Shown one piece after another: positions 15,948-33,042 of a DNA stretch of 46,098 bases. This DNA comes from an uncultured Eubacteriales bacterium. Lineage in GTDB: Bacteria; Bacillota; Clostridia; Peptostreptococcales; Anaerovoracaceae. The translations under genes were made by a program, and so were the position numbers. Numbering within the stretch: position 1 is the stretch's first letter; each line of letters starts with the position of its first letter. The stretch is from NCBI GenBank assembly GCA_902795135.1, contig CADBJW010000022.1:1-46098 (forward strand). The letters are read 5' to 3'. The notes under the pieces were generated by a model. The model was given only the letters and a program-made list of their open reading frames with translations. It made no database searches and had not been told where the DNA came from.

Positions 15948-15976
15948 TTGATTTTATTTCAAGACATCGATAGAAT
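15948..15976 (+). promoter_or_regulatory. Promoter of the cobalamin riboswitch operon
   Basis: TTGATT (15948-15953), a 17-base spacer and TAGAAT (15971-15976). The RNA would start near 15983, about 13 bases before the aptamer. Confidence 0.7.
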
Positions 15977-15995
15977 AGAGTTACAAGTTATAAGC

Positions 15996-16204
15996 AAGGT
16001 TCTGACATATCGGAAGCCGGTGTAAATCCGGGACTGTGTCTCAGCAACCGTGACGCCAACGAAAGAGCAAGCCTTTTAAGCAAAGGCAGTCACTGGGGTC
16101 GATACCCTGGGAAGGCGCTCTGTAGGGGTGCGGCGGCAAAATCCAACGCTGATTGGAAACAGGCCGCTGCATGTGGGCCAAGTCGGTAGACCTGTCATGA
16201 ACCT
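15996..16204 (+). ncRNA. Cobalamin (vitamin B12) riboswitch aptamer
   Basis: Conserved cobalamin-aptamer blocks occur in the right order: GGAAGCCGGTGTAAATCCGG (16011-16030), AGCAACCGTGA (16043-16053), GTCACTG with CTGGGAAGGCG (16089-16118), and the 3' box AAGTCGGTAGACCTGTC (16180-16196). The ends can close a P1 stem: AGGTT and TGACA (15997-16001, 16003-16007) with TGTCA and AACCT (16193-16197, 16200-16204). It is oriented toward the large gene cluster at 16398. Whether adenosyl- or methylcobalamin is preferred cannot be read here. Confidence 0.9.
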
Positions 16205-16278
16205 CCAGAGAGTCTTCTGAGATATGACAAGGCTGTTTTTTAGTATCTTTGCATACCCGGAAGCGGTGTGCTTTTTTT
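16191..16278 (+). terminator. Riboswitch expression platform with two U-tract hairpins
   Basis: The first hairpin pairs CCTGTCAT (16191-16198) with ATGACAAGG (16224-16232, one bulged A) before CTGTTTTTT. Its 5' arm is the aptamer P1 3' strand, so the two structures exclude each other. The second pairs GCATACC (16251-16257) with GGTGTGC (16265-16271) before TTTTTTT and is independent of P1. The ON/OFF sense cannot be decided by eye. The remaining 120 bases to the first gene show only a GAGGAGG ribosome site. Confidence 0.7.
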
Positions 16279-16397
16279 ATGCCGCCGGCTTTTGTGCGAA
16301 AGATACACATTCTTAAAAACACATCTATCTTAGCTGATTCCCTGCATAGAATTTTTTCGATTTCACTTTATATTTACAGCTTTGAGGAGGAATGATT

Positions 16398-19300
16398 ATG
16401 TGTAAGGGAAAGCGAAAAGCCGTATCTAAAATTACGGCTGTTCTTCTTGCCATGATGATGGTGGTCACCTTTGTGCCGACCTTTGCGTTCGCTGGGGAGA
16501 CAGGCACCGGTGACGAACAGGCCGGGCCACCAGATCAGGTAGAACCCCTAATGGATGAATCGACCGACCAGTCTTTGGAGGATGAGGACGAGGGCATCGA
16601 GTCGTCTGAAGAAGCAACAACTACCGAGGCCGGTGAAGACGAGCAGGTGCCTGCGGAAACAGAGCAGGCTTCAACGGAATCCGGCGCAAAAGCTTCGGCC
16701 ATGTCCGTGGAACCGTTATCGCTTACTGAGGAACAGGAAGAATTGAGAGGGTCCGGGACGGCAGAGGATCCGTATCTGATCGGAACCGAGGAGGAACTGC
16801 GTGCGTTTGCAGAGATGGCGACAGCGAGCAACTTTGCAGGCTGCGCCAAGCTAACGGCCGATATAGAATTGAACGGCACATGGACGTCGATTGCGCCACC
16901 AGGTGGATATGCAACAGAGGCATATAGTGGAGTCTTTGATGGTGACGGACACAAAATTTCCGGATTAAATATTAGCGCTTCTGCAACAAATCAGGGCCTC
17001 TTTGGTTTGATTAACGGTGCGACAATCAAGAATCTGAAGGTGGAAGGAAGTGTTTCCTCCTCAAAAGCATATGTGGGGGGAATTGTCGGTAAGGTTCAGA
17101 AAGGAACCATTCAGAACTGTTCATTCGAAGGAACCGTCAGCACAGATGTAAAAACGACAAGTGGCTGGGTTGGCGGCATCACCGGATATGGTGGCAATGG
17201 TGGAGCGAATACCGCAACAATTACAGGTTGTGTTAATAAGGCAACTGTAAGTGGAGGCGTTGCAGGTGGAATTGCAGGTGGAATCAAGCCAGGAACTGTT
17301 TCTGACTGCTACAACAAAGGGTCCATCAATGGTGTCAAAAAATCAGGTGGAATCGTATGTTGGGCGCAAAACCCACTGACGGTAAGTAACTGCTATAACA
17401 TCGGTGCTATTTCTGAATCCAGCACGGACCAGCATGCTGATATTGTAGCGTTCCAAATGGCATCAACCTCGTTTGAAAACTGCTTCTATCAGGAAGGTGG
17501 GAATTTATACAACAACGCAAATGCCAACCCAAAGAGTGAGACCAACTGCGGCGTTATCAACAAGGCAACGCTTTTGAGCGATTTGAACAGTACCGCCTTT
17601 GCGGCAGACACAAACAACATCAATAACGGATATCCGATCCTCGCCTGGGAAGGCGGCGCAGCACCGCAGCCGAAGGATCCAAAGATCAAAATCACAGGCA
17701 ATGCACCGCTGTACATGACAAATTCCGGAAGTCCTGCAAACGGAAAGCTCACAATCAGCTTTGTGGATATGGATGCGCAGGGAATCCAGTGGAGCATTGA
17801 ATCCGGATCTGACGTCATCCGCATCAGCGAAGCAGACGACGCAGGCGACAATAACATTTCACAGGTCGTTACCCCGCTGAAGGCAGGAAAGGCAACCGTG
17901 AAGGCACAGACGGCAGATGGAACATATACGGATGAAGCGGAAATCTCCGTCTATCCTCATATCACAACGATTTCAATGAATGGAAATCCGATTGCCGGAG
18001 AAGAGTACAGTGTAGATGTTTCAACATATAGCTATGGTGCTTACGATTACGACCAGTTCCCGGCTCTGGAAACCTTCACATGGAAATATTTCGATTCGAG
18101 AAATGATTATCAGAGCAATCCTTCAGGTGGTACCGTCATTAAGGGCAAAGGCCCTACGATTACCGTACCGGCAGAACTGGCCGGAAAGTGGCTGACGGTA
18201 ACGCTGCAATTCAAAGGCGAAAACAAAACACCTGGAACGCCGTACGGTAAAGACATACTGAGTGAACGCGTGCCGGTAACCGGTGCATCGATCGAAGGTG
18301 CAACGGCGTCTGAAGGTGGCCTTACAGCGGTAACTGGAACGACGCTTAAGGCAGTTGCAACCGGCGATGCAGACAAGACGCCAACAAACGTGACCTATCA
18401 GTGGGCTGAGAAAGCAGCTGACGCAGCTGACTTTACCGATATCGAAGGCGCAACGGGACAGACGTATAAGGTGCCGGACAAGAGCGCTTCATTGAATAAA
18501 GAATACAGAGTTACGATCAAAGGCGAAAATGACAGCACGGCGACTTCCGAGGCTGTCAAGATCACAGAATTATCCGAAGCTGCACAGGCAGCCGCTCAGG
18601 ATGAAAACGTATTGAAGGAAGCCATCGGTAAGTATGATGGTATGTCCAAGCTGACGCCGAAGTTTGGGGAAAACGACAATAACGTGGCGAAGTTCCTGCA
18701 GGCGGATCTCGCGGCCAAAGGCTATGAAGGAATCGCCGTCAAAGTAAAGGATGTTGCCTCGGGCAGCAATCATAACGGCGTTGCGGCGATTGCAGAGAAT
18801 GGTGACATTACCTGGTTCTACCCTGCAGCCGGTGTGGATCCGACAGGGATTTGGCAGATGCCTTACAGCAACATGGCGTATGCCCGATTCGAAGTGACAT
18901 TCACCTTGACAAAGGGTGATGCGGAATCTGAAATGACGAAAAACGTCGACCTGAACTGGGATGCAGACAAGCTTTGCGAATACCTGCAGCAGAACGTTCT
19001 GGATGCAATCACTTGGAATACGATCAAGGGAGATAATACCGGTGAGCTGACAGCGCTCAGCAATCTGAGCCTACCGGTTTATCCAAAGGATCTGGATTCG
19101 AAGCTCATCAGCATGACTTGGACATCCGACAACCCGGATGCAATCGAAATCAAAGATCCTACCGGCAATGCAGATCAGGTCGCATATGGCGATCGCATTG
19201 GTAAGGTAAAGCGTGGCACCGAGGATAAGACAGCCAAACTGACGGTCAACATCAGCTATGCAAAAATCGAGGATGGAGATACTCCAACGAAAAACGCCGT

Positions 19301-20945
19301 GGCACAGCTGAAGAAAGAGTTCAATATAACAGTACCGGCCTATACCCAGGAAGAAATCGAGGAACTGGTCACCAATGAACTGAACCAGAAAATCGATACT
19401 GCACTGGAGGAGAAAGGCCTGAGAGATTACACGACCAAGCAGCCAATCGATGCGGATAACGTCACAGGCGACATTCAGTTCCCAACGACAACAGACCTTA
19501 AAATCGACGGCAGTGTGCAGCCGGTAACCATTACCAGCAACAATCCAGAGGTCATCGACTATCCAAGAGATAAAAATGACCAGACAAAACCACAGAAAAA
19601 CGCAGCCAGAGTATACGTTTATCGACTGCTCCCTGGCAGCGAAGCACAGGATGTAACCCTCACCATGACCATTACGGACAACGAAACCGGCGTAGCGGTC
19701 AGCAGAAAGTTCCCAGTGAAAGTACAGCCGTTGACCGAGGAAGAAATCAATGATGCGAAGGCATTCATGACAAAGGCCGTGAAAGAGTACTGGGAAGGCT
19801 TAAAGGGAACCAATACGGATCCGGCAAAGGTTTCTTCGAACCTGACACCGTTCCAGGAAATTCAGATGAAGGAAGACGGCTCCCTCGGTTACGCATATAA
19901 GGATACTGATGTAACGGACGGTGGAATCAAGGCAGACCGGTATGTGGAAGAACTGACCGGGGCAGACAGCGATTACCGCAGGTTCAATCTGTCCGACAAC
20001 ACATACATCAATGACGATTCACTGACGTTAAAAGAAAACCTTCCGGAAAAGGGCGCGAAGGTAACCATCGACAGCTACCTGACGCACGCGGTATACGGTG
20101 ACTATTACACCAAGTACAAAGCCGCTGGAAACACGGAAGCAGCCGAACTGTTCAAGCCGTTCTACCGGCAGCATGCGGAAGTGACGATCACCATTCAGGG
20201 ACCGCACGTCCACAAACTGGTGCACTATAACGCAAAAGCCGCGACGGCTACGGCAGATGGAAACACTGAGTACTGGCTCTGTCCTGGATGCGGCAAGTAC
20301 TTTGCCGATGAAAACGGAACCAAGGAACTGACAAAGGCAGACGTCACGATCGCGAAGAAAGGGACAACGCCAAAGAAGGGAAGCAGCACAACAAAGAACA
20401 ATGCTGCCAAGAGTAACACTCCTGCCAAGACGGGCACCGTTCTGAACAGCGGCAACAGCTCCTATACCGTTACTTCAGCCGACAAGAAGAATCCGACGGT
20501 TGCGCTGAAGAGCACAAAGGCCAAAGGCACGCTGACGGTTCCGGCAACCGTTACCGTTGGAGGCGTCAAGTACAAAGTCACCGCCATTGCACCAAAGGCA
20601 TTCTTCAAGAACAAGAAGCTCAAGAAGGTCAATGTCGGCTCAAACATTATAACCATCGGAAGCCAGGCTTTCAGCAAGTGCAAGAAGCTCAAGAAGGTTA
20701 CGATCGGTCCAAATGTTACAACGATTGGATCCAAGTGCTTCGCAGGAAGCAAGAAACTGAAGACCCTGACCGTGAAATCCACCAAACTGACCAAGAGCGG
20801 TGTGAAGAACTCACTGAAAAAGTCAAAAGTCAAGAGGGTCAAAGTAAAAGTTGGCAGCAAGAAGTTGAACAAGCAGTATGTGAAGAAGTACAAGAAATTC
20901 TTCACGAAGAAGAACTGCGGAAAGAAAGTAAAAGTTAAGAGATAA
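16398..20945 (+). CDS. Large secreted surface protein: GLUG-type repeats, Ig-like domains, basic BspA-type leucine-rich C-terminus
   Basis: 1515 residues. The start is ATG 16398, 7 bases after GAGGAGG; ATG 16392 is too close to it. A signal peptide ends near residue 30 (VPTFAFA). Then come an acidic linker (30-110), a GLUG-like beta region (about 120-400; repeats such as GGIVGKVQKGTIQNCSFEG), bacterial Ig-like modules (about 425-640), atrophied-Ig-like segments to about 1260 and a small CPGCGKYF knuckle near 1290. The tail (1353-1515) has LRR_5/BspA-like repeats (KKLKKVTIGPNVTTIGS) ending in CGKKVKVKR. No sortase motif or membrane anchor; the lysine-rich tail may hold the protein on the wall. 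First gene behind the B12 riboswitch; its stop overlaps the next ATG by one base. A role in corrinoid capture or adhesion is inferred. Confidence 0.85.
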   Translation: MCKGKRKAVSKITAVLLAMMMVVTFVPTFAFAGETGTGDEQAGPPDQVEPLMDESTDQSLEDEDEGIESSEEATTTEAGEDEQVPAETEQASTESGAKASAMSVEPLSLTEEQEELRGSGTAEDPYLIGTEEELRAFAEMATASNFAGCAKLTADIELNGTWTSIAPPGGYATEAYSGVFDGDGHKISGLNISASATNQGLFGLINGATIKNLKVEGSVSSSKAYVGGIVGKVQKGTIQNCSFEGTVSTDVKTTSGWVGGITGYGGNGGANTATITGCVNKATVSGGVAGGIAGGIKPGTVSDCYNKGSINGVKKSGGIVCWAQNPLTVSNCYNIGAISESSTDQHADIVAFQMASTSFENCFYQEGGNLYNNANANPKSETNCGVINKATLLSDLNSTAFAADTNNINNGYPILAWEGGAAPQPKDPKIKITGNAPLYMTNSGSPANGKLTISFVDMDAQGIQWSIESGSDVIRISEADDAGDNNISQVVTPLKAGKATVKAQTADGTYTDEAEISVYPHITTISMNGNPIAGEEYSVDVSTYSYGAYDYDQFPALETFTWKYFDSRNDYQSNPSGGTVIKGKGPTITVPAELAGKWLTVTLQFKGENKTPGTPYGKDILSERVPVTGASIEGATASEGGLTAVTGTTLKAVATGDADKTPTNVTYQWAEKAADAADFTDIEGATGQTYKVPDKSASLNKEYRVTIKGENDSTATSEAVKITELSEAAQAAAQDENVLKEAIGKYDGMSKLTPKFGENDNNVAKFLQADLAAKGYEGIAVKVKDVASGSNHNGVAAIAENGDITWFYPAAGVDPTGIWQMPYSNMAYARFEVTFTLTKGDAESEMTKNVDLNWDADKLCEYLQQNVLDAITWNTIKGDNTGELTALSNLSLPVYPKDLDSKLISMTWTSDNPDAIEIKDPTGNADQVAYGDRIGKVKRGTEDKTAKLTVNISYAKIEDGDTPTKNAVAQLKKEFNITVPAYTQEEIEELVTNELNQKIDTALEEKGLRDYTTKQPIDADNVTGDIQFPTTTDLKIDGSVQPVTITSNNPEVIDYPRDKNDQTKPQKNAARVYVYRLLPGSEAQDVTLTMTITDNETGVAVSRKFPVKVQPLTEEEINDAKAFMTKAVKEYWEGLKGTNTDPAKVSSNLTPFQEIQMKEDGSLGYAYKDTDVTDGGIKADRYVEELTGADSDYRRFNLSDNTYINDDSLTLKENLPEKGAKVTIDSYLTHAVYGDYYTKYKAAGNTEAAELFKPFYRQHAEVTITIQGPHVHKLVHYNAKAATATADGNTEYWLCPGCGKYFADENGTKELTKADVTIAKKGTTPKKGSSTTKNNAAKSNTPAKTGTVLNSGNSSYTVTSADKKNPTVALKSTKAKGTLTVPATVTVGGVKYKVTAIAPKAFFKNKKLKKVNVGSNIITIGSQAFSKCKKLKKVTIGPNVTTIGSKCFAGSKKLKTLTVKSTKLTKSGVKNSLKKSKVKRVKVKVGSKKLNKQYVKKYKKFFTKKNCGKKVKVKR

Positions 20946-23326
20946 TGACCCATAAGAAGGTACTTCTTACAATAATGTATGCGGTGCTGACGATTCTCGT
21001 CGGCACTGCATATATGCATGTTAAAACAGATCCGGTTTTTGCGGAAACGACATCCTCCGAAACAGAAATATTTGTTGTGTTTGAGGATCAGCAAAACAGC
21101 GAGGAAGCAGTGGATCTGGCATTAGACGCATTGGCAGATGATGTGGATGTAGAATCTGCGGAAGAAGTGGTCGATGCCGTTGCCGACGACGGCGCCGGGA
21201 TTTTGATCACGGTGACTGACGGAGCGAATCTGGGAGAGGCCATCGATGCGCTGAATGACACAGAAGGCGTCGCCTATGCGCAGCCCAACTATCATTACCA
21301 GATGATGGAGAAGGCACAGGAATCTTCCGTCAGTGTGAATGACGCGTATCGGAAGGACCAGTACTATTTGGATCCGTGGAACCCTTCCTTTGAAACAAAC
21401 TGCGGTGCAGGCGTCACCAATGCATGGGAATTACTCGGCGGCATCAATACCGGTGGAACGGGAAACGAAGTTGTGATCGCTGTACTGGATTCCGGCTGCC
21501 AGACGACTCATCATGATCTGGCCGCAAATATCGATACCACATATGCCTACGATGCAGTCAATCAGAAGCAGGGTGCAGGATACGTAAAGGACTCCTCCGG
21601 TCATGGGACACATGTCTGCGGAATCGCGGCAGGCGTGGCCAATAATACGGATGGGATCGCCGGCGTATCCGGCAATTACGCGAAAGTCATTCCCGTCAAT
21701 GTGTTCTCGGGGCAGTATGCGGATACGGCGGATATGGTAACGGCCTTTCGTTATCTCGAAGACCTGATGGATACCGGCAAGGTCAAGAATCTGCATGTCA
21801 TTAACATGAGCCTTGGCGGATACAACGGACCTGACGAAAACGATATCGCGCTGGAAAGCTACATCAATCGAATGCGCAGCAAGGATGTTCTGACGGTTTG
21901 CGCAGGGGGAAACGGCGATGAAAAAACCGGCAAAGCATACAAAGACAAACCGGTCTATCCGGGAGATTTTGATGGATGCCTTTGTGTAACCTCTTTGGAG
22001 CAGAATGGGACAAATAGCGAGTTTTCGGATTACAACCAGGCAAAGGACATCAGCGCACCGGGTGCCTGGATCATTTCGACGATTACCGATGAGAGGGATT
22101 CAAATTCGGCACCGGACGAAGGCTATGCGTATTTGTCGGGAACTTCTATGGCATCGCCGTTGGTTGCAGGTGTCGCGGCACTGATTTGGGCGGACAACGA
22201 TCAGCTTACGGCCGACCAGGTTTATGAATCTATCGTGGCGACGGCTGCGGAAGTCAATCCGGCGGTCAACGATCACCGTGGGGAAACCGGCAGCGCAGGT
22301 GCCATCGATGCAGCCGCAGCAATCGGTTATGCCAGAGATCACTTTGACACGAAGCGAACCAGTCTGGCGGAAGGGACAATGACCGTCGACGGGCAGGGAA
22401 TGGTCTTTGACGGAGAGGAAAAACATCCGGCAGTAACCGTCACTTGCGGCGGCAAGACATTGACCGAAGGAAAAGAATACGTCCTGAGCTACATGAACTG
22501 TATTTATCCGGGCAAGGCGCAGGTGACCGCAACCGGTATTCGTGATTACATCGGTCAAATCTCTGCGGAATATACCATCGCTAAGGCGGATCTCGCAAAG
22601 GCAGCGGTGGTTTTGGAACCGAGTGCTTTTGCTTATGACGGGGAATACCATTTCCCGGAGATCACGGTAACGATGAACGGAATGGAACTGATTTGGGGAC
22701 AGGATTACACCCCGACAGGACTGACCAACGGCATCGATTCAGGGACGCACCAGATCAAATTGACCGGAAAAGGATATTACGACGGTTCGAAAATCGTGAC
22801 CTACAAAATCGGCACGGCAGCGGCCAAAAGCAGCAAGAATGGGAATGTAAAGAAGCCAGCAGCCACCAAAGCAGTCGCTCCGGTGAAGGTCAATACGACC
22901 TTCAAGGCGGGCCAATTCACCTATCGGGTAACGACTGTAAAGGGCACGGCTCAGGTCAAACTGACCAAATCCGCTGCACGGGGGAAGGTCAGCATACCGA
23001 AAACCGTCAAGTACCGGAATCGAACTTATGCGGTTTCCGGAATCGGCACAGAGGCATTCAAGGGAAGCGCGATCACTGCACTGACCGTTACCGCGAATGT
23101 AAAAACCATCGACGCGAGAGCTTTTGCGGGATGTAAAAAACTAAAGAAAATAACGATACAGACCAAACAGTTGACCAAAGCCGGTGTGAAAGGCTCCCTG
23201 AAGGGATCGAAGGTCAAAACCATAAAGGTCAAAGTCGGTTCAAAGAAAGAGAACAAGAAGTTCAAAAAGAAGTATAAAAAAATCTTCAAAAAGAAGATTT
23301 GTGGGAAAAAAGTGAAGGTTAAGTAG
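20945..23326 (+). CDS. Secreted subtilisin-like serine protease (S8) with Ig-like repeats and basic leucine-rich tail
   Basis: 793 residues. A signal peptide (to about 30) and an I9-like propeptide (35-120, ending VAYAQPNYHY) precede the S8 domain. Catalytic residues are D182 (VLDSG), H220 (GHGTHV) and S401 (SGTSMASP), with oxyanion Asn in INMSLGG. Two MBG/YDG-like beta modules (about 478-622) and a basic LRR tail (650-793) follow. The tail is clearly related to that of the preceding protein (SKVKTIKVKVGSKK, CGKKVKVK). The ATG shares its first base with the upstream TAA, and no separate ribosome site is obvious, so translation is probably coupled. It may mature or release neighbouring surface proteins, or free protein-bound cobalamin; both are inference. 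Confidence 0.9.
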   Translation: MTHKKVLLTIMYAVLTILVGTAYMHVKTDPVFAETTSSETEIFVVFEDQQNSEEAVDLALDALADDVDVESAEEVVDAVADDGAGILITVTDGANLGEAIDALNDTEGVAYAQPNYHYQMMEKAQESSVSVNDAYRKDQYYLDPWNPSFETNCGAGVTNAWELLGGINTGGTGNEVVIAVLDSGCQTTHHDLAANIDTTYAYDAVNQKQGAGYVKDSSGHGTHVCGIAAGVANNTDGIAGVSGNYAKVIPVNVFSGQYADTADMVTAFRYLEDLMDTGKVKNLHVINMSLGGYNGPDENDIALESYINRMRSKDVLTVCAGGNGDEKTGKAYKDKPVYPGDFDGCLCVTSLEQNGTNSEFSDYNQAKDISAPGAWIISTITDERDSNSAPDEGYAYLSGTSMASPLVAGVAALIWADNDQLTADQVYESIVATAAEVNPAVNDHRGETGSAGAIDAAAAIGYARDHFDTKRTSLAEGTMTVDGQGMVFDGEEKHPAVTVTCGGKTLTEGKEYVLSYMNCIYPGKAQVTATGIRDYIGQISAEYTIAKADLAKAAVVLEPSAFAYDGEYHFPEITVTMNGMELIWGQDYTPTGLTNGIDSGTHQIKLTGKGYYDGSKIVTYKIGTAAAKSSKNGNVKKPAATKAVAPVKVNTTFKAGQFTYRVTTVKGTAQVKLTKSAARGKVSIPKTVKYRNRTYAVSGIGTEAFKGSAITALTVTANVKTIDARAFAGCKKLKKITIQTKQLTKAGVKGSLKGSKVKTIKVKVGSKKENKKFKKKYKKIFKKKICGKKVKVK

Positions 23327-23346
23327 AAAGAGAAAGGAGAAGAAGA

Positions 23347-24864: not shown

Positions 24865-24877
24865 GCGTTTCGCAAAC

Positions 24878-24908
24878 GACAGATGACGGGAGTTTCCCGT
24901 CATCTGTC
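24878..24908 (+). promoter_or_regulatory. Perfect 13-bp hairpin without U-tract inside the operon
   Basis: GACAGATGACGGG (24878-24890) pairs with CCCGTCATCTGTC (24896-24908) around AGTTT. No T-run follows, so it is not a standard terminator. It may be a processing or stability element, or partial attenuator, dividing the secreted-protein genes from the membrane-protein genes. Confidence 0.6.
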
Positions 24909-24939
24909 CAATCTATTTCACGAGCAGGGAGTTACCGCA

Positions 24940-26199
24940 ATGGAGACGAAAGCAAAAAAGAAAACCTACAACATCATCATGGTCGCGCTGATTGCTGTCA
25001 TAGCAGTGTGCGGGATACTTGCCGTGGGGCATATACAGGGATGGTTTGGATCCGACAGTCAGGGTGCGGAAATCGTATCTCAGGAAATCAAAGGGGTTGT
25101 AAATATTGAACGAAGCGGGGTCGGCTATTCTCTGGAAAAAGACGTCGAACTGAAGGACGAGGATATTGTCGAAACGCGTAACGGATCGGAGGCTTCTTTT
25201 GCACTCAGCGGAAAGAATCTTTTAGCACTGAACGAGAATTCGGAACTGCAATTTCCAAAGTGCACCGACGGTGAGGTTGGAGTTCAGCTGAACCGGGGCG
25301 AATGCTTTGCAGAAATTCCGGACGCACCGGAAGCGTTTTCCGTTGCCTTTGGCAAGAATACCGCAACCATTAAGGGTACCGTCTTCTCAGTCAGCCAGCA
25401 GAAAAACAGCTCCACGCTGACCGTTTATGAGGGCGCTGTGGAAGTCGCCGCAGAAGATGGCAGCACCAATTCTGTCGAGGCGGGCCAGCAAATACTGATT
25501 TCCAGAAATGCCGATAACAAATTGCTTGTGGAGACGAGCCAAATCAAGGAAACCTATCTCAGCGATTATCTGATTGAGAAGCTTCTCGCATGCAAGACCA
25601 AAGGCCTTTGCTTTAGTGAGAAGCAGTTGAATAAGGTAATTGCCGATCGTGAAACCGAGAAGAAGGCAGAAGCAAAAGCCTTAGAGCAGGAAGCGATCAA
25701 AATTGCGGAAAGCGAACAGGCTGGAGAATCGGCGGACGTGGGAACGGGTGAAGCAGGCAGTGCCGATTCCGCAGGCAGTGACGGCACAGCGGCATCCAGC
25801 GGCGAAAGCGGCGGCGGAGTAAAAACATGCACCATTTCCATACGCTGCAAGTCGATTCTCAACAACATGGACAAACTCAAAAGCGGCAAGAACCGATACG
25901 TACCATCCAATGGCGTGATCCTTTCCACCAGTTCGGTGGAATTTCAGGATGGGGAAACCGCTTATGACGTTACGAAGCGTGCCTGCTCCGCAACCGGTAT
26001 TCAAATCGAAGCTTCCTACTCACCGATTTACGGAAGCTATTACGTGGAAGGCATCGGACACCTCTATGAATTTGACTGTGGGGAGATGTCCGGATGGTTA
26101 TATAAAGTAAATGGATGGACACCAAACTATGGCTGTTCAGAATACAAACTGAAGAACGGAGATAGTATCGTATGGGATTACACCTGCACAGGATATTAA
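24940..26199 (+). CDS. Membrane-anchored FecR-domain protein with C-terminal DUF4430
   Basis: 419 residues. ATG 24940 follows AGGGAG (24926-24931) by 8 bases; an ATG at 24883 lies within the hairpin and is rejected. A single N-terminal membrane segment (about 11-30, IIMVALIAVIAVCGILAVG) points the rest outside. Residues 40-190 form a FecR-like beta domain (NGSEASFALSGKNLLALNENS, TIKGTVFSVSQQ, VYEGAVEV). A charged helical and Ser/Gly-rich linker follows (210-285). Residues 290-419 are DUF4430-like, with GWLYKVNGWTPNYG and KLKNGDSIVWDY. DUF4430 is the domain also found as the C-terminal part of intrinsic factor and transcobalamin. The next gene starts 28 bases before its end. A cobalamin-capture role is inferred from the domain and riboswitch. 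Confidence 0.85.
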   Translation: METKAKKKTYNIIMVALIAVIAVCGILAVGHIQGWFGSDSQGAEIVSQEIKGVVNIERSGVGYSLEKDVELKDEDIVETRNGSEASFALSGKNLLALNENSELQFPKCTDGEVGVQLNRGECFAEIPDAPEAFSVAFGKNTATIKGTVFSVSQQKNSSTLTVYEGAVEVAAEDGSTNSVEAGQQILISRNADNKLLVETSQIKETYLSDYLIEKLLACKTKGLCFSEKQLNKVIADRETEKKAEAKALEQEAIKIAESEQAGESADVGTGEAGSADSAGSDGTAASSGESGGGVKTCTISIRCKSILNNMDKLKSGKNRYVPSNGVILSTSSVEFQDGETAYDVTKRACSATGIQIEASYSPIYGSYYVEGIGHLYEFDCGEMSGWLYKVNGWTPNYGCSEYKLKNGDSIVWDYTCTGY

Positions 26200-28826
26200 C
26201 GGCAATCGTTATTGTTTCGCTCCTGCTGATGCCGGTTTCGGCACCGGCTGCTTTTGGTGCAGAAGACAGTCCTGGCGCCGTTCAGGAGACACAGCAAAAG
26301 GAAGAAGCCGCACCGGCGAAAGAAGAAACAACGACAAAAGCAGCAGAGTCGCCAACGCAAGCTGCGGAACCGGAACCGGAAAAGACAGAGGAAACCAAGG
26401 ATGTCAGCCGTGAGCCTGCTTCCGGTGAAGGGGCCACAGAAGAAACCTCCACAAAGGAAGCGTCCGCGGAAACCCTGATCCAAATCACTTTTTCTCTCAT
26501 GGCGGATAAAGAAAAAGGCGACGAATGGGTCAAGCCGCAAACCCTCTCATTTGCAGAGGACAGCACGGTGAAAGAAGTGCTGGAGTCCGTCCTTAAGGAA
26601 CTGGACGGGAAATGCGAATGCAGCAAGGAGGGGAAGATTCAAAGCATTACATTTCCGACCGAAAAGGATGCTATTACCTTACGTGCCGCAGAGGAGACCG
26701 GCAAGTGGATCTACAGCATCAACGGGAAGGATTTTGAAACGGGTGCAGACAAGTACGTTCTCAAAGATAAGGACAAACTGGTTGTTTATTACAAACCGGT
26801 TGAATCCGTGACCGACGAAACCGCAAATGCCGAGATTGCCGTGCCGGAAGAAACCGCTGACAGCATGCACATCGACACCGACACCCTTTTGCAGGGAACC
26901 TCCGTTTCAGGAGGCAAAAGCGTCGACCATGCCTACGGCAATACCAAAGGCATTATTACCGAGATCGGTAATCAAAATCATTGGTCGGCAGATACCATAT
27001 GGATGGTTTTGGGACTTGCACGTGCCGGAGAACTCACTTCTTCTCAGGCAAAGGCTTACTACGGGGACATTCTGGCGAAGATGGAAAAAATCAATTCACC
27101 GGTCCTCAGCCCGAAACAGTCCAGTGATAATTCGCGTGCCGTATTAGCGCTCACAGCGGCCGGGTATGATGCGTCCAATGTCGGGGGATACAATCTTCTG
27201 GAGCCTTTGGCGAACATGTCCTACATCCGCGCTCAGGGAATGAACGGCCCTGTTTGGGCATTGCTGGCATTTGACAGCAAAGGCTATGAAATTCCAAAGC
27301 TGACCGGTGTGAGTGAAAGCGCTGCAGAAAAGCTGCAAACGACTCGCGAGAAACTGGTTCAGACGCTGCTGGGCAGCAGGAAGAGTGATGGCGGCTGGGC
27401 CTTTAGCGGGAATCGGTCCGATGTGGATATGACGGCCATGACGATTCAGGCACTGGCACCTTACTACAATACGGATCCGAAAGTCAAAACAGCCGTCGAC
27501 GGTGCACTGAACTGGCTTTCTGCGGCACAGAATAAAGACGGATCCTTCTCCTCGGGGGACAGTGTGAATTCCGAGTCCTCCAGCCAGGTCATCGTCGCAT
27601 TGACGAGTCTGGGCATTGATCCGGGAAAGGACAAGCGATTCCTGAAAAACGGAAAGGGAGCCGTGGATTCTCTGCTGTCGTTCTATACAAAGGGCGGCGG
27701 ATTCAAGCACATCAAAGACAATTACAAATATAACGTTCTGGCGACCTATCAAGGGTATTATGCTCTGGTTGCCTACTATAGAAGTTTGAATGGCAAAAAC
27801 AGTCTCTATGATATGAGCGATGCGGGAGATGATTTTATCATCGATGTGGAATATATAATCGATCAGGTTGCCAAAGATCGTGAAGCAGCACAGCAGAAGG
27901 CAAAGAATCAGGCTGCGGAGGCGGAGAAGGCAGCAGAGAAAAAGCAAGAAGAGCAAAAGCCTCTTGGCGCGACAAAGGGAATCACGAAGTCCGCGGGACT
28001 GATCAAGCTTAAAGGCGCGACTGCGGAGGCCAAGGGATCCATTGGCCTGATTGAAGCGGTCGTCAATCGAGGTCTGTCGGAAGATGCAGCATCTTACACG
28101 GAAGAAGATATAAAGGCCATCAATGAGGCGTATCGCGCCTATCTGAAGCTGGAACCGGCAGAGAAACTGGCTGTCGAAAAAGATAAAAACTGGAAGTCAT
28201 TCTGCAAACTCACAAAAGCCCTCGGCAGCCTTTATCATATTGATCCGGAACACGGGGTAGACGTACTGGACAACAACGATATCATCATGCCGTGGTATGT
28301 GAAGCTGGTTGTGACGGAACAGGATATTACAAAAGAACAGTCCGACAAAATCATCAGCATACTAGGTGAGAAGGGACGCATCTTTGAAACCTATGACATC
28401 AGCTTTGTAGACACATTGGCGGGAGATGATCCTGAGAATCCGGAAGCGGATAACCATTGGTCTCCGGAAAAGGTTCTCAAAGTAAATCTGGGCATCCCGG
28501 CAGAACTCGAGAACACGCCGGTAGTGGTACACATTACAAAGAAGGGAAAGATCGAATTCCTTGCGAATAAAGTGATCAAAGATAAAGACAACCGGTATCA
28601 AGGGTATCGCAGGTACGCCCAATTCAAGTCCGATGATTTTTCAATCTACGGGATAGCGGGCACCGCTGATTCGATTCGGTCTATGATCAGCGAACCGGAA
28701 GAAGAATCTTCCGGAACCGATGGCATGCTGTGGGTTTATCTTGGAGCAGCTGCTTTGGCAGCCCTGGCACTTGTGGCAGTCTTGAGGCGCAGGACCGGCG
28801 CCGCTGAGGAAACGAAAGAATCATGA
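26172..28826 (+). CDS. Membrane-anchored DUF4430 plus alpha/alpha-toroid protein, candidate cobalamin-binding surface protein
   Basis: 884 residues. ATG 26172 (GGAG 10 bases upstream) begins a signal peptide ending near AFGA. A Glu/Thr/Ala-rich linker (30-95) leads to DUF4430 (100-206; GKWIYSINGKDFETGADKY, LKDKDKLVVYY). Residues 269-548 contain prenyltransferase/squalene-oxidase-type repeats of an alpha/alpha barrel (MNGPVWALLAF, KSDGGWAFSG, NKDGSFSSG, ESSSQVIVALTSLGIDP). A further region to 840 is unassigned. One C-terminal membrane helix (850-870) and a basic RRR stop place the body outside the cell. Intrinsic factor and transcobalamin use the same two folds in the opposite order. The stop overlaps the first ecfT by 4 bases. 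Cobalamin binding is a hypothesis. Confidence 0.85.
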   Translation: MGLHLHRILTAIVIVSLLLMPVSAPAAFGAEDSPGAVQETQQKEEAAPAKEETTTKAAESPTQAAEPEPEKTEETKDVSREPASGEGATEETSTKEASAETLIQITFSLMADKEKGDEWVKPQTLSFAEDSTVKEVLESVLKELDGKCECSKEGKIQSITFPTEKDAITLRAAEETGKWIYSINGKDFETGADKYVLKDKDKLVVYYKPVESVTDETANAEIAVPEETADSMHIDTDTLLQGTSVSGGKSVDHAYGNTKGIITEIGNQNHWSADTIWMVLGLARAGELTSSQAKAYYGDILAKMEKINSPVLSPKQSSDNSRAVLALTAAGYDASNVGGYNLLEPLANMSYIRAQGMNGPVWALLAFDSKGYEIPKLTGVSESAAEKLQTTREKLVQTLLGSRKSDGGWAFSGNRSDVDMTAMTIQALAPYYNTDPKVKTAVDGALNWLSAAQNKDGSFSSGDSVNSESSSQVIVALTSLGIDPGKDKRFLKNGKGAVDSLLSFYTKGGGFKHIKDNYKYNVLATYQGYYALVAYYRSLNGKNSLYDMSDAGDDFIIDVEYIIDQVAKDREAAQQKAKNQAAEAEKAAEKKQEEQKPLGATKGITKSAGLIKLKGATAEAKGSIGLIEAVVNRGLSEDAASYTEEDIKAINEAYRAYLKLEPAEKLAVEKDKNWKSFCKLTKALGSLYHIDPEHGVDVLDNNDIIMPWYVKLVVTEQDITKEQSDKIISILGEKGRIFETYDISFVDTLAGDDPENPEADNHWSPEKVLKVNLGIPAELENTPVVVHITKKGKIEFLANKVIKDKDNRYQGYRRYAQFKSDDFSIYGIAGTADSIRSMISEPEEESSGTDGMLWVYLGAAALAALALVAVLRRRTGAAEETKES

Positions 28827-29713
28827 GAAGAGATTCATTTTCAGAATACCATCCCGGAATCACGTTTACGTTTTTTATTGCAGCGATCGTTTTCGGGATG
28901 TGTTTCATACATCCGGCCTTTTGGATAAGTTCGGTGGTTTTGTCCACGGCTTATGTCGTGTCCATCCGTGGGAGAAGAGCTGCGAAAATACTGTTGATTT
29001 TACTGATTCTCTTTTTAGCAGTTTCTCTGCTCAACCCGATGTTTACCGCGGATGGAGAACATGTTTTGTTTCTGCTGCCGTGGGGAAGACCCTATACCAT
29101 GGAAGCCCTTTGCTATGGATTGGCTGCAGGTGGCATGTTCGTGACGGTACTGCTGTGGTTTGCCGCCTATAACGAGGTCATGAGCAGTGATAAATTCCTA
29201 TTCTTGTTTGGGCGTCTGATGCCGTCTCTCTCTTTGGTACTGACGATGATTCTGCGGCTAGTGCCCAGCTTCCAAAGAAAGATGGCACAAATCGTTGGCG
29301 CCCGAAAGTGCATCGGTATGGTCGGTGACGTGGATCGCAAAAGCAGAATCAATGCCGGGATGGCAGTAACGGCTGCGCTCACAAGCTGGGCTCTGGAAGG
29401 TGGCATTATCACAGCGGACAGCATGCAGAGCCGTGGGTTTGGAGTCGGGAAACGAAGCGCCTTTGCAGTTTACAGACTGGAGAACCGGGATGTGATCCTG
29501 CTGGGCGTCATGATTCTGTTGATTTTGGTCGTGCTTCTGTGCGCCTTTCACGGCGGTATGAAAACGGCCTACATTCCGAAAATCGAACTGGCAGGGACAG
29601 ACGTCCCGTATATGATAACAGGGATGATTGCTTATGTATTATTCATGGCGATCCCTACAGCGCTCAATATTGTGGAGACAGTAAGATGGCATTATTTGAA
29701 ATCAAAAATCTGA
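28823..29713 (+). CDS. ECF transporter transmembrane component EcfT (first copy)
   Basis: 296 residues, about six membrane helices. It is the T component that couples the ATPases to the substrate-binding S protein. The typical coupling-helix signature is visible in ADSMQSRGFGVGKRSAF (near 192-208). Four-base overlap with the upstream gene; the ATPase gene begins 28 bases before its stop. A similar but distinct EcfT lies at 32091. Cobalamin or a precursor is the likely cargo, from the riboswitch and neighbours. Confidence 0.9.
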   Translation: MRRDSFSEYHPGITFTFFIAAIVFGMCFIHPAFWISSVVLSTAYVVSIRGRRAAKILLILLILFLAVSLLNPMFTADGEHVLFLLPWGRPYTMEALCYGLAAGGMFVTVLLWFAAYNEVMSSDKFLFLFGRLMPSLSLVLTMILRLVPSFQRKMAQIVGARKCIGMVGDVDRKSRINAGMAVTAALTSWALEGGIITADSMQSRGFGVGKRSAFAVYRLENRDVILLGVMILLILVVLLCAFHGGMKTAYIPKIELAGTDVPYMITGMIAYVLFMAIPTALNIVETVRWHYLKSKI

Positions 29714-31383
29714 GTTTTGCGTATCCGACCGGGAAAGGAAGAAACGTACTCGAAAATATCGACTTGCAGATCGAGCAGGGACAATACATAACCATTTGCG
29801 GCAAGAGCGGAAGCGGGAAGACAACGCTGCTCCGGCACCTAAAGAGCGTATTGACCCCTCATGGAAACCGGACCGGCGTCATATACTTTCATGGACAGCC
29901 ACTGGAAGACATCAGCCTTAGAGAGCAGTCCTCGCGCATCGGTTACGTCATGCAAAATCCAGACAGTCAGATCGTGACCGATAAAGTGTGGCATGAGCTG
30001 GCCTTTGGTTTGGAAAGTCTGGGCGAGAACCAGAAGACGATTCGTACGCGCGTGGCGGAAATGGCAAGCTATTTTGGTATTCAGGGCTGGTTTCATAAGA
30101 ATGTTGCCGAGCTTTCCGGCGGACAAAAGCAGCTTTTGAATTTGGCATCGATTATGGCCATGCAGCCGGACACGTTGATTCTGGATGAGCCGACCAGCCA
30201 GCTGGACCCCATTGCGGCAGCCGATTTTTTGAATACCGTCCGAAAGATCAACCTGGAACTTGGGACAACGATCCTCATTACAGAACACCGCCTGGAAGAC
30301 ATCTTTCACGCATCCGACCGGGTGGTCGTGATGGAACAGGGCAGGATCGTTGCAGACGATACACCAAAGGCAACAGGAGCCTTTCTCAAAGAAGCGGGCA
30401 GTGAAATGTTCGCGGCCATGCCGTCTCCGATGCAGATCTTTTATGGCGTAAACGAAGAAAAAGTTATCCCTGAAGATTGTCCATTGACGGTTCGCGAGGG
30501 AAGAAACTGGCTGAGCAAATCCTTTCCGGATGGAAAACCTGTCAAAAGCAGGCTGGAGGAAGATACGGACCTGGCTGAAATCGCAAAACCGGCCCTGTTA
30601 ATGAAGGAAGTCTGGTTCCGGTATGAAAAGGATGCACCGGATGTCTTAAAAGGGGTGACCTTTGCAGCTGCCGAAGGCGAACTGTCGGCCATTGTCGGAG
30701 GAAATGGAACCGGGAAATCGACGGCGCTCAAAACAATCTGCAACATTTGCAGACCATACAGAGGTCGGGTTTATCTTCATGGCAAGCGTGTGGATCAATA
30801 TAAGCGCGGGGAGCTGTTCAAACACAATCTGGTTATGCTTCCGCAGGATCCGCAGAGCCTTTTTGTCAAGAAGACTGTACGTGAGGAATTGGAGGAGATG
30901 GTTTCCGCAAAGGCATCGTCCGATGATAATGCATCTCCTATCGATGAAATCGTGGATCTTTGTGAGATTCGGCCGCTTCTGGACTCCCATCCATACGATT
31001 TGTCCGGCGGTGAGCAGCAAAGAACGGCACTGGCCAAGGTACTGCTTACGGATCCAAAGGTATTGCTTCTGGATGAACCGACGAAGGGCCTGGACAATTT
31101 CTTCAAGCTGAAGCTTGCAAAAATCCTGAGAGCATTAAAAGAACGCGGTGTAACGATTATCATGGTGTCCCATGACGTGGAGTTTTGCGCGCGATATGCA
31201 GATCGGGTCAGCATGTTCTTTGATGGCGGCATCATTACAACCAACACACCTAGAAGGTTTTTCTCACAGAACAGTTTCTATACGACGGCAGCAAATCGTA
31301 TGAGCCGTCATGTTTTTGATAACGCTATTACCAATGAAGATGTTATAGAGCTTTGCTTAGAAAACGAAAACCATGAACAGTAA
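29686..31383 (+). CDS. ECF transporter ATPase, two ABC domains fused in one chain (EcfA-EcfA')
   Basis: 565 residues with two complete ABC ATPase domains. Domain 1: Walker A GKSGSGKTT (from residue 40), signature LSGGQKQ, Walker B LILDEPTSQLD, switch histidine in ITEHR. Domain 2: Walker A GGNGTGKST (from 338), signature LSGGEQQR, Walker B LLLDEPTKGLD, switch in MVSHD. Most ECF modules use two separate ATPases. GGAG at 29674-29677 supports ATG 29686; an open frame extending upstream overlaps ecfT and has no site. The last codons overlap the S-component ATG (31373). It powers uptake at the inner face of the membrane. Confidence 0.93.
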   Translation: MALFEIKNLSFAYPTGKGRNVLENIDLQIEQGQYITICGKSGSGKTTLLRHLKSVLTPHGNRTGVIYFHGQPLEDISLREQSSRIGYVMQNPDSQIVTDKVWHELAFGLESLGENQKTIRTRVAEMASYFGIQGWFHKNVAELSGGQKQLLNLASIMAMQPDTLILDEPTSQLDPIAAADFLNTVRKINLELGTTILITEHRLEDIFHASDRVVVMEQGRIVADDTPKATGAFLKEAGSEMFAAMPSPMQIFYGVNEEKVIPEDCPLTVREGRNWLSKSFPDGKPVKSRLEEDTDLAEIAKPALLMKEVWFRYEKDAPDVLKGVTFAAAEGELSAIVGGNGTGKSTALKTICNICRPYRGRVYLHGKRVDQYKRGELFKHNLVMLPQDPQSLFVKKTVREELEEMVSAKASSDDNASPIDEIVDLCEIRPLLDSHPYDLSGGEQQRTALAKVLLTDPKVLLLDEPTKGLDNFFKLKLAKILRALKERGVTIIMVSHDVEFCARYADRVSMFFDGGIITTNTPRRFFSQNSFYTTAANRMSRHVFDNAITNEDVIELCLENENHEQ

Positions 31384-32101
31384 CAAAAGAACGACGCTTA
31401 TCGAAATTCTGATTATTATAATTCTCATACCGGTTGTCCTTCTCATTTCCTGGAAAGTTGGAGACCGGCAGTACTATCTGACCAGTGTCATCGTTATGAT
31501 TCTGATTATGATCCCATTTTTCCTTCGTTTTGAACGGCGTAGTCCCTCTGCGAGGGAACTTGTCACCATTGCCGTCATGGCGGCCATTGCAACTGTGGCG
31601 AGAGCGGCTTTTGTAATGGTGCCCCATTTCTCACCGATGTCCGGCGTTGTTATGATCGCGGGAATCGCATTGGGTCCGGAAGCGGGATTCGTGATCGGCG
31701 CATTGACGGCTTTTGCGAGCAATTTTGTATTTGGGCAGGGTCCATGGACGCCGTGGCAGATGTTCATTTACGGATTGGCGGGATTCATCGCAGCGCTCCT
31801 TGCCAAAAAAGGCATAATGAGTGAAAAGCACCGCATCCGAACCGCTTTAATTGGTGGTCTTCTGATTTTGTGCGTCATCGGTCCGCTTCTTGATACGGCA
31901 ACTCTGTTCCTGGAGTCGATGATGGTCAACAACCTTTCGGCAAAAGCCATTTATCTGTCAGGACTGCCTGTCAACGCGATCCATGGAGCAGTTACATGTG
32001 TAACGCTCTTTGTTCTGTGCAAACCGATCAAGGAAAAGCTGGATCGGATCAAAATCAAGTACGGCATGATGGAGGGTTCGAACAAAAACCATGAGATTTG
32101 A
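31373..32101 (+). CDS. ECF transporter substrate-specific component (S), probable cobalamin or corrinoid S protein
   Basis: 242 residues, about six or seven hydrophobic segments. Residues 55-150 contain the family-like run ATVARAAF, MIAGIALGPEAGFVIGALTAFASNF and GPWTPWQMFIYGLAGF, typical of ECF S proteins that sit between EcfT and the membrane. An extra N-terminal hydrophobic hairpin (10-50) precedes it. It overlaps both neighbours (11 bases each). Cobalamin S proteins CbrT and the alpha-ribazole S protein CblT are known; I cannot match this to either by eye. The riboswitch upstream makes a corrinoid or its precursor the best substrate guess. Confidence 0.85.
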   Translation: MNSNKRTTLIEILIIIILIPVVLLISWKVGDRQYYLTSVIVMILIMIPFFLRFERRSPSARELVTIAVMAAIATVARAAFVMVPHFSPMSGVVMIAGIALGPEAGFVIGALTAFASNFVFGQGPWTPWQMFIYGLAGFIAALLAKKGIMSEKHRIRTALIGGLLILCVIGPLLDTATLFLESMMVNNLSAKAIYLSGLPVNAIHGAVTCVTLFVLCKPIKEKLDRIKIKYGMMEGSNKNHEI

Positions 32102-32966
32102 TAGCTATCATCCAGTTATAAATCTGATATATTTCGTCGCTGCCATCTGGTTTACGATTTGGTTCCATCATCCGGTGTTTCTGGCGATTTCTTTTGCTGC
32201 GGCCTTTGCGTATTCTGTGAAGCTCAACGGGCTGCGAGGGCTTGTGTTTAACTTGTGTCTGTTTCCGCTCATGGCGGCTTACGCCCTATGGTACAGCTAT
32301 TATACCCATTTCGGTGTGACGGTAATCGGACAGAATTTTACAGGAAATGACATGACGTTGGAATCCTTGGTGTTTGGCGTGGTCATCAGTGTGACGGCGG
32401 CTTCGGTTATCATGTGGATGGCCTGCGTGTTTGCCGTGTTTTCATCGGACAAGGTGGTGTATCTGTTTGGCCGGGTTTCGCCAAAGGCATCGCTGTTTTT
32501 GTCGATTTTGCTCCGCAGTGTTCCGCGCATCAAGAAGATGGCGGGAAAAATCAACACGGCCCAAAAGGGACTGGGGAAAGGCGCGTTTCAGGGAGGTCTG
32601 GGAGGCATCCGATTCCTTCCGCGATTGATTTCGATCGTGATCACATGGACCTTGGAGAGTTTCGCGGAAAGCTCTGAATCCATGAAGTCTCGGGGTTACT
32701 CGCTGCGCGGCCGCACGGCCTTTAGCATCTATCGGTTTGACAACCGCGACCGCGCGTTCATCGTTGTGTTGTTTCTGTGTTTGACGCTCATCGCAATGGC
32801 GGTTATGTTCAATCAGACCAATATTTACTACGATCCGGAAATCATTATGAATCGGATCACGTACATTTCCATATTCTTTTACACTGCCTATGCGGCCTTT
32901 CTTCTCTTGCCGATGGCATTACAAATTGCCGGCGAAATCAAACAGAAAAACTCGCTCTATTTATGA
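32091..32966 (+). CDS. ECF transporter transmembrane component EcfT (second copy)
   Basis: 291 residues, same fold and layout as the EcfT at 28823 (start RFDSYHPVINLIYFVAAI compares with RDSFSEYHPGITFTFFIAAI). The coupling signature is ESSESMKSRGYSLRGRTAF. It starts 11 bases inside the S gene and ends the cluster, giving the order T - AA' - S - T. Two T genes with one S and one fused ATPase is unusual: the ordinary ECF complex has one T. They may form a T-T' heterodimer or alternative complexes. No terminator is seen after it; an extended -10 promoter overlaps its last codons. Confidence 0.9.
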   Translation: MRFDSYHPVINLIYFVAAIWFTIWFHHPVFLAISFAAAFAYSVKLNGLRGLVFNLCLFPLMAAYALWYSYYTHFGVTVIGQNFTGNDMTLESLVFGVVISVTAASVIMWMACVFAVFSSDKVVYLFGRVSPKASLFLSILLRSVPRIKKMAGKINTAQKGLGKGAFQGGLGGIRFLPRLISIVITWTLESFAESSESMKSRGYSLRGRTAFSIYRFDNRDRAFIVVLFLCLTLIAMAVMFNQTNIYYDPEIIMNRITYISIFFYTAYAAFLLLPMALQIAGEIKQKNSLYL

Positions 32967-32972
32967 TATAAT
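32964..32972 (+). promoter_or_regulatory. Extended -10 promoter for the iorAB operon
   Basis: TGA plus TATAAT (32967-32972) lacks a good -35. RNA would start near 32979, about 65 bases before iorA. GGTAGGTACAGA and TCTGTCACACC (32986-33015) can fold into an imperfect hairpin in the leader. Confidence 0.5.
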
Positions 32973-33042
32973 ACATCATGTATAGGTAGGTACAGAAATC
33001 CTCTGTCACACCTGCCACAAATCAAGGAGAGCGGACAATAAA

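Follow-up and report, generated by a model that had tools for sequence, protein, structure and literature searches.

The closest described relatives of the system reported here are toroid and transcobalamin-like surface proteins from operons with CbiO/CbiQ, which Burroughs et al. 2007 predicted to scavenge B12 or its precursors (PMC1796856). As presented in that paper, these systems comprise an exported transcobalamin-like beta-grasp protein, often fused to a toroid on either side and accompanied by a second paralogue in the operon, together with a CbiO-like ATPase and a CbiQ-like membrane protein. We analyzed a 46,098-nucleotide stretch of DNA (the window, part of one contig, CADBJW010000022.1) from an uncultured Eubacteriales bacterium with a 2.08-Mb genome in 39 contigs (91% complete), and found a nine-gene operon behind a cobalamin riboswitch in which P0005, with P0006, P0007 and P0009, matches that plan. 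We hold with good confidence that this operon serves the capture and import of cobamides at the cell surface and membrane, ligand binding and transport being predicted.

Three further systems bear comparison. The energy-coupling factor (ECF) transporter ECF-CbrT of Lactobacillus delbrueckii contains the nearest solved relative of our S component, P0008; the available sections of that report do not mention extracellular carrier proteins (PMC5997447). In contrast to ECF-CbrT, the S gene here shares an operon with fused ATPases and two EcfT genes. BtuG, BtuH and BtuJ of Bacteroides are described as riboswitch-controlled surface lipoproteins that capture B12 and feed a membrane importer, as proposed here, but BtuG is a beta-propeller, BtuJ a jelly roll, and the receiving protein is outer-membrane BtuB (PMC6143338, PMC6977713, PMC13398666). 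None of our searches found a domain shared between the operon proteins and BtuG, BtuH or BtuJ, and the resemblance appears to be one of analogy, not kinship. Animal transcobalamin, intrinsic factor and haptocorrin each join a beta-grasp carrier domain and an alpha/alpha toroid in one protein, as P0005 is predicted to do, whereas P0005 is bacterial, membrane-anchored and reversed in domain order.

An earlier sequence-only reading of this DNA had stated that no described system had the full gene set, which the 2007 prediction makes too strong. Relative to that prediction, the present locus adds the riboswitch link, a CbrT-like S component, a cryptic third beta-grasp protein (P0003), a second EcfT, a CbiR-like neighbor and the P0001/P0002 pair. 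We did not find these last five, a quantified riboswitch link or a fusion of EcfA, EcfA' and S described in this setting; the word riboswitch is absent from the main text of the 2007 paper (PMC1796856), and our literature search, whose scope left aside preprints and most subscription journals, found no paper on DUF4430 under B12 riboswitches.

The riboswitch-led operon

The leader and the nine same-strand, tightly packed genes behind it occupy positions 15969 to 32966 of the forward strand, and are as follows.

15969-16213, + strand: cobalamin riboswitch aptamer (RF00174, 39.9 bits against a gathering score of 31.5, E 9.6e-7)
16251-16278, + strand: terminator-type expression platform, a 7-bp stem followed by seven T (hairpin search downstream of the aptamer)
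16392-20945, + strand: P0001, giant exported protein with GLUG and BspA-type leucine-rich repeats (LRR_5) and a basic tail (Pfam, hydropathy scan)
20945-23326, + strand: P0002, exported subtilisin-like protease with LRR_5 and a basic tail (Peptidase_S8, 160 bits)
23347-24864, + strand: P0003, exported, with a cryptic beta-grasp domain like that of transcobalamin (about residues 37-140, predicted fold), a further beta-rich domain and a basic tail
24940-26199, + strand: P0004, N-terminal membrane anchor, FecR and DUF4430 (DUF4430 65.4 bits, cut-off 23.8)
26172-28826, + strand: P0005, export signal, DUF4430 (25.4 bits, cut-off 23.8), alpha/alpha toroid and C-terminal membrane anchor
28823-29713, + strand: P0006, first EcfT (CbiQ below the Pfam cut-off; EcfT family comparison)
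29686-31383, + strand: P0007, fused EcfA-EcfA' ATPases, a double ATP-binding cassette (ABC) protein (TIGR04520, 350 bits, above cut-off)
31373-32101, + strand: P0008, ECF S component whose closest solved relative is the B12-specific CbrT (Pfam above cut-off; PDB profile search)
32091-32966, + strand: P0009, second EcfT, which falls in its own group of the EcfT tree (CbiQ below the Pfam cut-off; leaf order)

The B12 aptamer proposed from the sequence alone was thus recovered above the Rfam gathering score, and its core motifs could be aligned with those of 14 other aptamers. All nine related aptamers that we examined have, downstream, a hairpin and then 6 or more T within 9 bases (the best hairpin being picked at each, without a shuffled control); given this and the hairpin and T run behind the window's own aptamer, the leader looks like a transcription-termination riboswitch, with a predicted response to B12. 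The promoter placed earlier at 15948-15976 exists as a pattern and is weak on its own, since promoter-like sites were not clearly commoner than in shuffled sequence (22 sites versus 17.3, sd 4.1). All nine open reading frames (ORFs) lie on one strand where they had been reported, with two starts corrected to conserved codons: ATG 24940 for P0004 and ATG 29686 for P0007, whose ORF opens at 29539. The likely start of P0001 is ATG 16398 (ribosome-binding site judged by eye).

Carrier-like proteins and the ECF module

We modeled the cryptic domain of P0003 with AlphaFold (pLDDT, the predicted local distance difference test, of 84, from a 9-sequence alignment). The top 17 PDB matches of this model in Foldseek were transcobalamin, haptocorrin or intrinsic factor only, the best being the transcobalamin beta domain with cyanocobalamin (5np4, E 1.2e-3, probability 1.00), and the match that followed was 3u7z, a Ruminococcus gnavus protein annotated as putative metal-binding. 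P0003 is therefore predicted to fold like the beta domain of transcobalamin. P0004 and P0005 carry DUF4430 outright, and the profiles of the two domains match each other (probability 95%); a PDB sequence search with the P0004 profile found no carrier. Hydropathy scans placed hydrophobic segments at the N-terminus of P0004 and at both ends of P0005.

The P0005 model (pLDDT 83, predicted template modeling score 0.68) holds, by predicted fold, both domain types of the animal B12 carriers in reversed order, an arrangement also noted for a Bacillus protein in the 2007 paper (PMC1796856). Its beta-grasp domain again matched 3u7z. Pfam matches to the toroid were below cut-off, and the toroid model matched farnesyltransferase, terpene cyclases and complement, with transcobalamin and intrinsic factor at like TM-scores (0.48-0.49 by target). 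With a beta-grasp domain and a toroid in one chain, P0005 could close a cobamide between the two as transcobalamin does. It could also be asked whether the toroid is instead an enzyme related to class II terpene cyclases, as squalene-hopene and drimenyl diphosphate cyclases are among its profile matches (best E 2.2e-11) and it has a conserved D-x-D-x-T motif. The class II motif is DxDD, and in ten aligned sequences the third Asp is Met or Ile; this loss lowers the enzyme reading, the toroid belongs to an exported protein that also has a carrier-type beta-grasp domain, and the toroids of complement, farnesyltransferase and transcobalamin match too. We consider a cyclase highly improbable.

The ECF transporter set is complete: the ATPase and S component scored above their cut-offs, and the two EcfT proteins, below the Pfam cut-off, are backed by position and relatives. 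A profile built from P0008 and ten relatives matched the CbrT chain of 6FNP at 66.5 bits (E 2.4e-17), with the next transporter chain, 4hzu_S (which we take to be an S component), at 18.6 bits. 6FNP is ECF-CbrT, described as importing cobalamin and cobinamide (PMC5997447). By these profile scores P0008 is akin to CbrT, and transport of cobalamin and cobinamide is predicted for it. In 11 of the 78 loci of the wide scan described below, EcfA, EcfA' and S are fused as one ORF of 880-935 aa (L093, L095, L102, L109, L112, L117, L119, L120, L122, L129 and L145), which suggests an S component dedicated to this ECF module.

In the EcfT tree, the copies encoded after S form a group of their own (21 of 87 rows, 19 distinct contigs; leaf order, without support values); the tree covered EcfT ORFs of 230-380 aa and omitted loci L076-L081. 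We also considered whether this second EcfT is degenerate; no sign of this was seen, and the R-G motif near the end is kept in both alignment groups. It may offer an alternative to the first unit.

The weak resemblance of the EcfT units to CbiQ raises the alternative that the module imports cobalt or another B12 precursor, such as a lower-ligand base, with the surface proteins serving a smaller ligand. Cobalt import, too, is placed under B12 riboswitches, and the genome has a corrin synthesis cluster. Against this, no CbiM or CbiN match was seen among the nine proteins in Pfam or NCBIfam (for P0007, among the best 25 of each list) and the S component is closest to the B12-specific CbrT, both of which lower the cobalt reading; the predicted folds are those of carriers of whole cobalamin; and another B12 riboswitch of the genome (L047 8675-8795, its third) precedes a NikA-like ABC transporter, below cut-off, that is possibly a cobalt importer. 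One study sets the NikA-like type behind B12 riboswitches apart from nickel-specific ones (PMC2667541). We regard import of cobalt or a precursor as unlikely.

Recurrence of the operon and its riboswitches

Among 36 other genomes of the genus, many of them incomplete, eight (loci L026-L033) have a close relative of the P0005 toroid together with the core genes, as far as their contigs reach. The order P0003-P0004-P0005-EcfT-EcfAA' is kept in seven of these, and the eighth, L033, is a variant that has a toroid protein of 2179 aa and lacks a P0003-like gene. Finding this gene order behind B12 riboswitches elsewhere had been named beforehand as a check; riboswitches above the Rfam threshold were present at six of the eight loci (L027, L029-L033), and the other two contigs start inside the P0003-like gene. 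The conserved core has seven genes: P0003, P0004, P0005, EcfT, fused EcfAA', EcfS and the second EcfT. In L033, separate riboswitches lead EcfT and the P0004 relative, and two more lead small gene pairs that include DUF4430; at 16408-18661 of that locus, a unit of B12 riboswitch, 94-aa gene and 138-aa DUF4430 lipoprotein-like gene stands twice in tandem.

We then scanned 84,980 species genomes and retained 78 loci from the best 80 of 460 relatives, including contigs also used as the G loci discussed below. By record title these belong to Clostridia (among them Emergencia, Clostridium cadaveris, C. tagluense, Lutispora and Terrisporobacter), with 18 Paenibacillus records; cultured carriers include Emergencia sp. 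1XD21-10 and Lutispora thermophila. Searched with our own profiles, 75 loci had a P0004-type DUF4430 protein, 61 EcfT, 58 EcfS and 57 all three ECF parts; EcfAA' was counted in 63, an upper figure, as its profile also catches other ABC ATPases. ORF calling, in these loci and in those of the genus, was greedy by length, so that antisense ORFs can mask true genes (e.g. the S gene of L028). The DUF4430/toroid/ECF set recurs in most of the 78 loci, chiefly in Clostridia and Paenibacillus.

A strict B12-box pattern, which matched 15 of the 78 loci, was replaced by a covariance model (R1) built from 15 aptamers, with an Rfam check; five of the 78 loci supplied sequences to R1. Same-strand upstream matches to R1 were found at 48, 50 and 56 of the 78 loci at E 1e-5, 1e-4 and 0.01, and, at E 1e-4, at 43 of the 60 loci with at least 8 kb of upstream sequence. 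Of seven loci checked against Rfam six were positive, and Parablautia L091 was negative. Two or three B12 riboswitches per locus were seen at L142, L146 and L038.

To place the link on a class-wide footing we used a sample of 196 genomes, 86 of them with DUF4430, and examined the best 150 matches listed, which came from 76 genomes. A same-strand cobalamin riboswitch lay at most 20 kb upstream of 102 of these 150, where about 1.5 would be expected by chance assuming 2.4-Mb genomes; the mirror position held a riboswitch for 11 matches and the opposite strand for 6. The link was present in 61 of the 76 genomes, and 73 of the 165 riboswitches in these genomes lead to a DUF4430 match among those listed (two of the searches behind these figures used stricter filters). 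In this class, B12 riboswitches thus have DUF4430 among their main targets. The link points to a possible function of this domain of unknown function and makes the 2007 prediction a testable system.

An opposing view is that the proteins with DUF4430 and toroid domains have a general role at the surface or in adhesion and came under B12 control, leaving B12 to the ECF part alone. Giant proteins with leucine-rich, GLUG or immunoglobulin-like (Ig) repeats are indeed common surface architectures, 48 of the 150 best matches listed have no riboswitch link, so that other DUF4430 roles remain possible, and at five loci (L039-L043) related toroid genes have MoxR, DUF58 and transglutaminase-like genes (identified by eye) as neighbors, with no cobalamin riboswitch above threshold. 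Yet the riboswitch accompanies the other 102 matches, most of the 78 loci have ECF genes together with DUF4430 and the toroid, the latter two fused or next to each other, and in L033 the small DUF4430 lipoprotein-like genes are second behind B12 riboswitches of their own. We judge the adhesion view quite unlikely.

Beside those 48 unlinked matches, several results weigh against capture and import of cobamides. At 28 of the 78 loci no upstream R1 match was found at E 1e-4, some of these loci being shortened by contig ends. The Foldseek E-values of P0003 all exceed 0.001, it has no Pfam DUF4430 match, and hhalign against the P0004 DUF4430 profile gave 4%, so its assignment rests on the predicted fold. 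The best sequence and fold matches of the P0005 toroid are terpene cyclases and farnesyltransferases, not transcobalamin. P0008 taken alone finds its best Pfam match in the riboflavin S family, and the lead of CbrT over RibU is then narrow (34.1 versus 29.4 bits). The host genome holds a corrin synthesis cluster (CbiD, CbiF and CbiE/CbiT above cut-off, CbiG below) and a BtuCD-like ABC transporter with binding protein (below cut-offs), which leaves the need for a second importer unexplained. The hosts of the systems of Burroughs et al. 2007, by contrast, are described as usually, not necessarily, lacking key B12 biosynthesis enzymes (PMC1796856).

Host context, flanking genes and operon ends

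With a corrin cluster and a BtuCD-like transporter already in the genome, the operon probably supplements an existing supply with cobamide salvage of high affinity or broader range. Two enzymes dependent on adenosylcobalamin, lysine 5,6-aminomutase and ornithine 4,5-aminomutase, were found above cut-off, and a corrinoid methyltransferase protein below it. The genome's second riboswitch (L046) follows closely behind the BtuCD-like transporter, above which the contig soon ends; at L046 8195-10593 this riboswitch leads an exported protein with a CbiK-like chelatase domain (PF06180, 205 bits) and a NEAT-match protein below cut-off.

The steps of cobamide capture and import can be proposed as follows. 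Scarcity of intracellular adenosylcobalamin would let the leader RNA permit transcription past the terminator, as its riboswitch class and platform imply, and the operon would be made. Three proteins with a transcobalamin-like beta-grasp domain, P0003 outside the membrane and the membrane-anchored P0004 and P0005, would catch cobamides, and P0005 could close the ligand between beta-grasp domain and toroid in the manner of transcobalamin; the FecR domain of P0004 may have some role. The carriers would then pass cobamides to the CbrT-like P0008, through which the EcfAA'T module would import them at the expense of ATP. P0001 as a surface scaffold and P0002 as a protease of maturation or release might assist, and the flanking CbiR-like enzyme might remodel foreign cobamides after import.

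The genes that open the operon call for separate weighing. P0002 has the motifs that carry the catalytic Asp, His and Ser (VLDSG, GHGTH and GTSMASP, beginning at residues 180, 219 and 399). By hydropathy and motif scan, P0001-P0003 share an N-terminal hydrophobic segment and a basic tail with 20-26 Lys/Arg in the last 60 residues. The surface proteins had earlier been called wall-bound; a motif scan of the last 80 residues of P0001-P0005 found no LPXTG-like signal for sortase anchoring and the exported P0001-P0003 end very basic, which leaves that term unsupported. Of the surface relay with ECF import proposed at the same time, B12-controlled surface-to-membrane corrinoid uptake is supported by the riboswitch link, the predicted P0003 fold, the CbrT-like S component and the conserved gene order. 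As a guess, the basic tails might give non-covalent retention at the wall. It is likewise a guess that P0002 matures proteins or releases bound cobamides.

P0001 and P0002 could be hitchhikers between riboswitch and core operon, unrelated to B12. They are absent from all six genus core operons in which that stretch is readable (two further contigs end there), the riboswitch there preceding the P0003-like gene in five and EcfT in one, and the basic tail is common to many proteins of the genus. Homologues of the two genes nonetheless adjoin each other at three loci, G004, G011 and G017. At G004 the pair lies behind one partial riboswitch match of 36.3 bits, and the P0003-like gene that comes next lies behind another, also partial, of 37.5 bits. 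In G011 riboswitches of 119 and 72.5 bits bracket a 1920-aa ORF and the pair, with a P0003-like gene behind the second. At G017 the P0002 relative is interrupted, the contig begins within the P0001 relative and no riboswitch was found. The pair thus belongs to a B12-controlled neighborhood in three species including this one and not to the core, so that its earlier standing as a regular part is partly supported, by the two other species and not by the six readable operons. We consider hitchhiking a real possibility, if not the favored one.

Just upstream of the riboswitch lies a gene whose sole NCBIfam match is the cobamide hydrolase family CbiR (NF041277), at 39.2 bits against a cut-off of 105 and hence outside the family by that measure. 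We compared ORFs of 111 loci and found homologues flanking the operon in seven other genomes, eight with the window.

15062-15928 of the window, + strand: CbiR-like TIM barrel of the AP endonuclease 2 superfamily, just upstream of the riboswitch (PF01261, 61.9 bits)
L026 9394-10356: CbiR-like gene, 3' side of the operon
L027 5191-5973: CbiR-like gene, before the riboswitch
L030 3136-3903: CbiR-like gene, 3' side of the operon
L031 11347-12126: CbiR-like gene, before the riboswitch
L098 (Emergencia) 17122-17889: CbiR-like gene, directly behind its own B12 riboswitch
L112 15461-16240: CbiR-like gene, nearby
L119 13559-14335: CbiR-like gene, 3' side of the operon

CbiR was the best NCBIfam match of all eight, the seven relatives scoring 35.2-63.3 bits, each below 105. 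CbiR of Akkermansia, of the same AP endonuclease 2 superfamily, is described in the available sections of its report as hydrolyzing cobamides for remodeling, with a quarter of its homologues adjoining putative transport-protein genes (PMC7733943). At 35-63 bits, the flanking genes may form a separate subfamily. The window's copy is possibly a cobamide-remodeling relative outside the control of this riboswitch, and its recurrence in eight genomes lends further support to cobamides as the ligand.

These elements can be joined into a larger picture, a Gram-positive counterpart of intrinsic factor with remodeling and an ancestry for animal carriers, which we think doubtful as a whole with all parts holding jointly. 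A shed or wall-retained P0003 would collect cobamides, the co-regulated subtilase P0002 would free them from competing binding proteins or mature the carriers, and the membrane-bound, two-domain, transcobalamin-like P0005, with P0004, would receive them. Uptake would be by an ECF importer whose S component is CbrT-like and whose two EcfT units are alternatives, and CbiR-like remodeling would follow. If this were true, such operons would be a main cobamide-capture route of the Clostridia and Paenibacillus that carry them and the source of the B12 carriers of animals. Short of that, the operon offers a counterpart to Bacteroides BtuG and bears on the origin of animal intrinsic factor and transcobalamin.

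Regarding junctions, P0001 and P0002 overlap by 1 base, P0002 and P0003 are 20 bases apart, and P0004/P0005, P0005/P0006, P0006/P0007, P0007/P0008 and P0008/P0009 overlap. The close packing read from the sequence therefore applies to most junctions (overlapping or at most 20 bases apart) and not to P0003-P0004, where the conserved start at 24940 leaves a 75-base gap. This gap contains a hairpin.

24878-24908, + strand: perfect 14-bp hairpin in the P0003-P0004 gap, without a U tract

As the hairpin has no U tract, the statement that the operon contains no clear terminator stands. A strong hairpin was found in this gap in six of eight operons folded, and those of the window and L026-L030 differ in sequence and are alike in position and in having no U tract; a role as an mRNA processing or stability element is possible. 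The next gene, for indolepyruvate ferredoxin oxidoreductase alpha, follows 76 bases past the operon. No terminator was seen in the interval (32967-33042), and transcription may read through into this gene; the same interval contains a TATAAT-like box.

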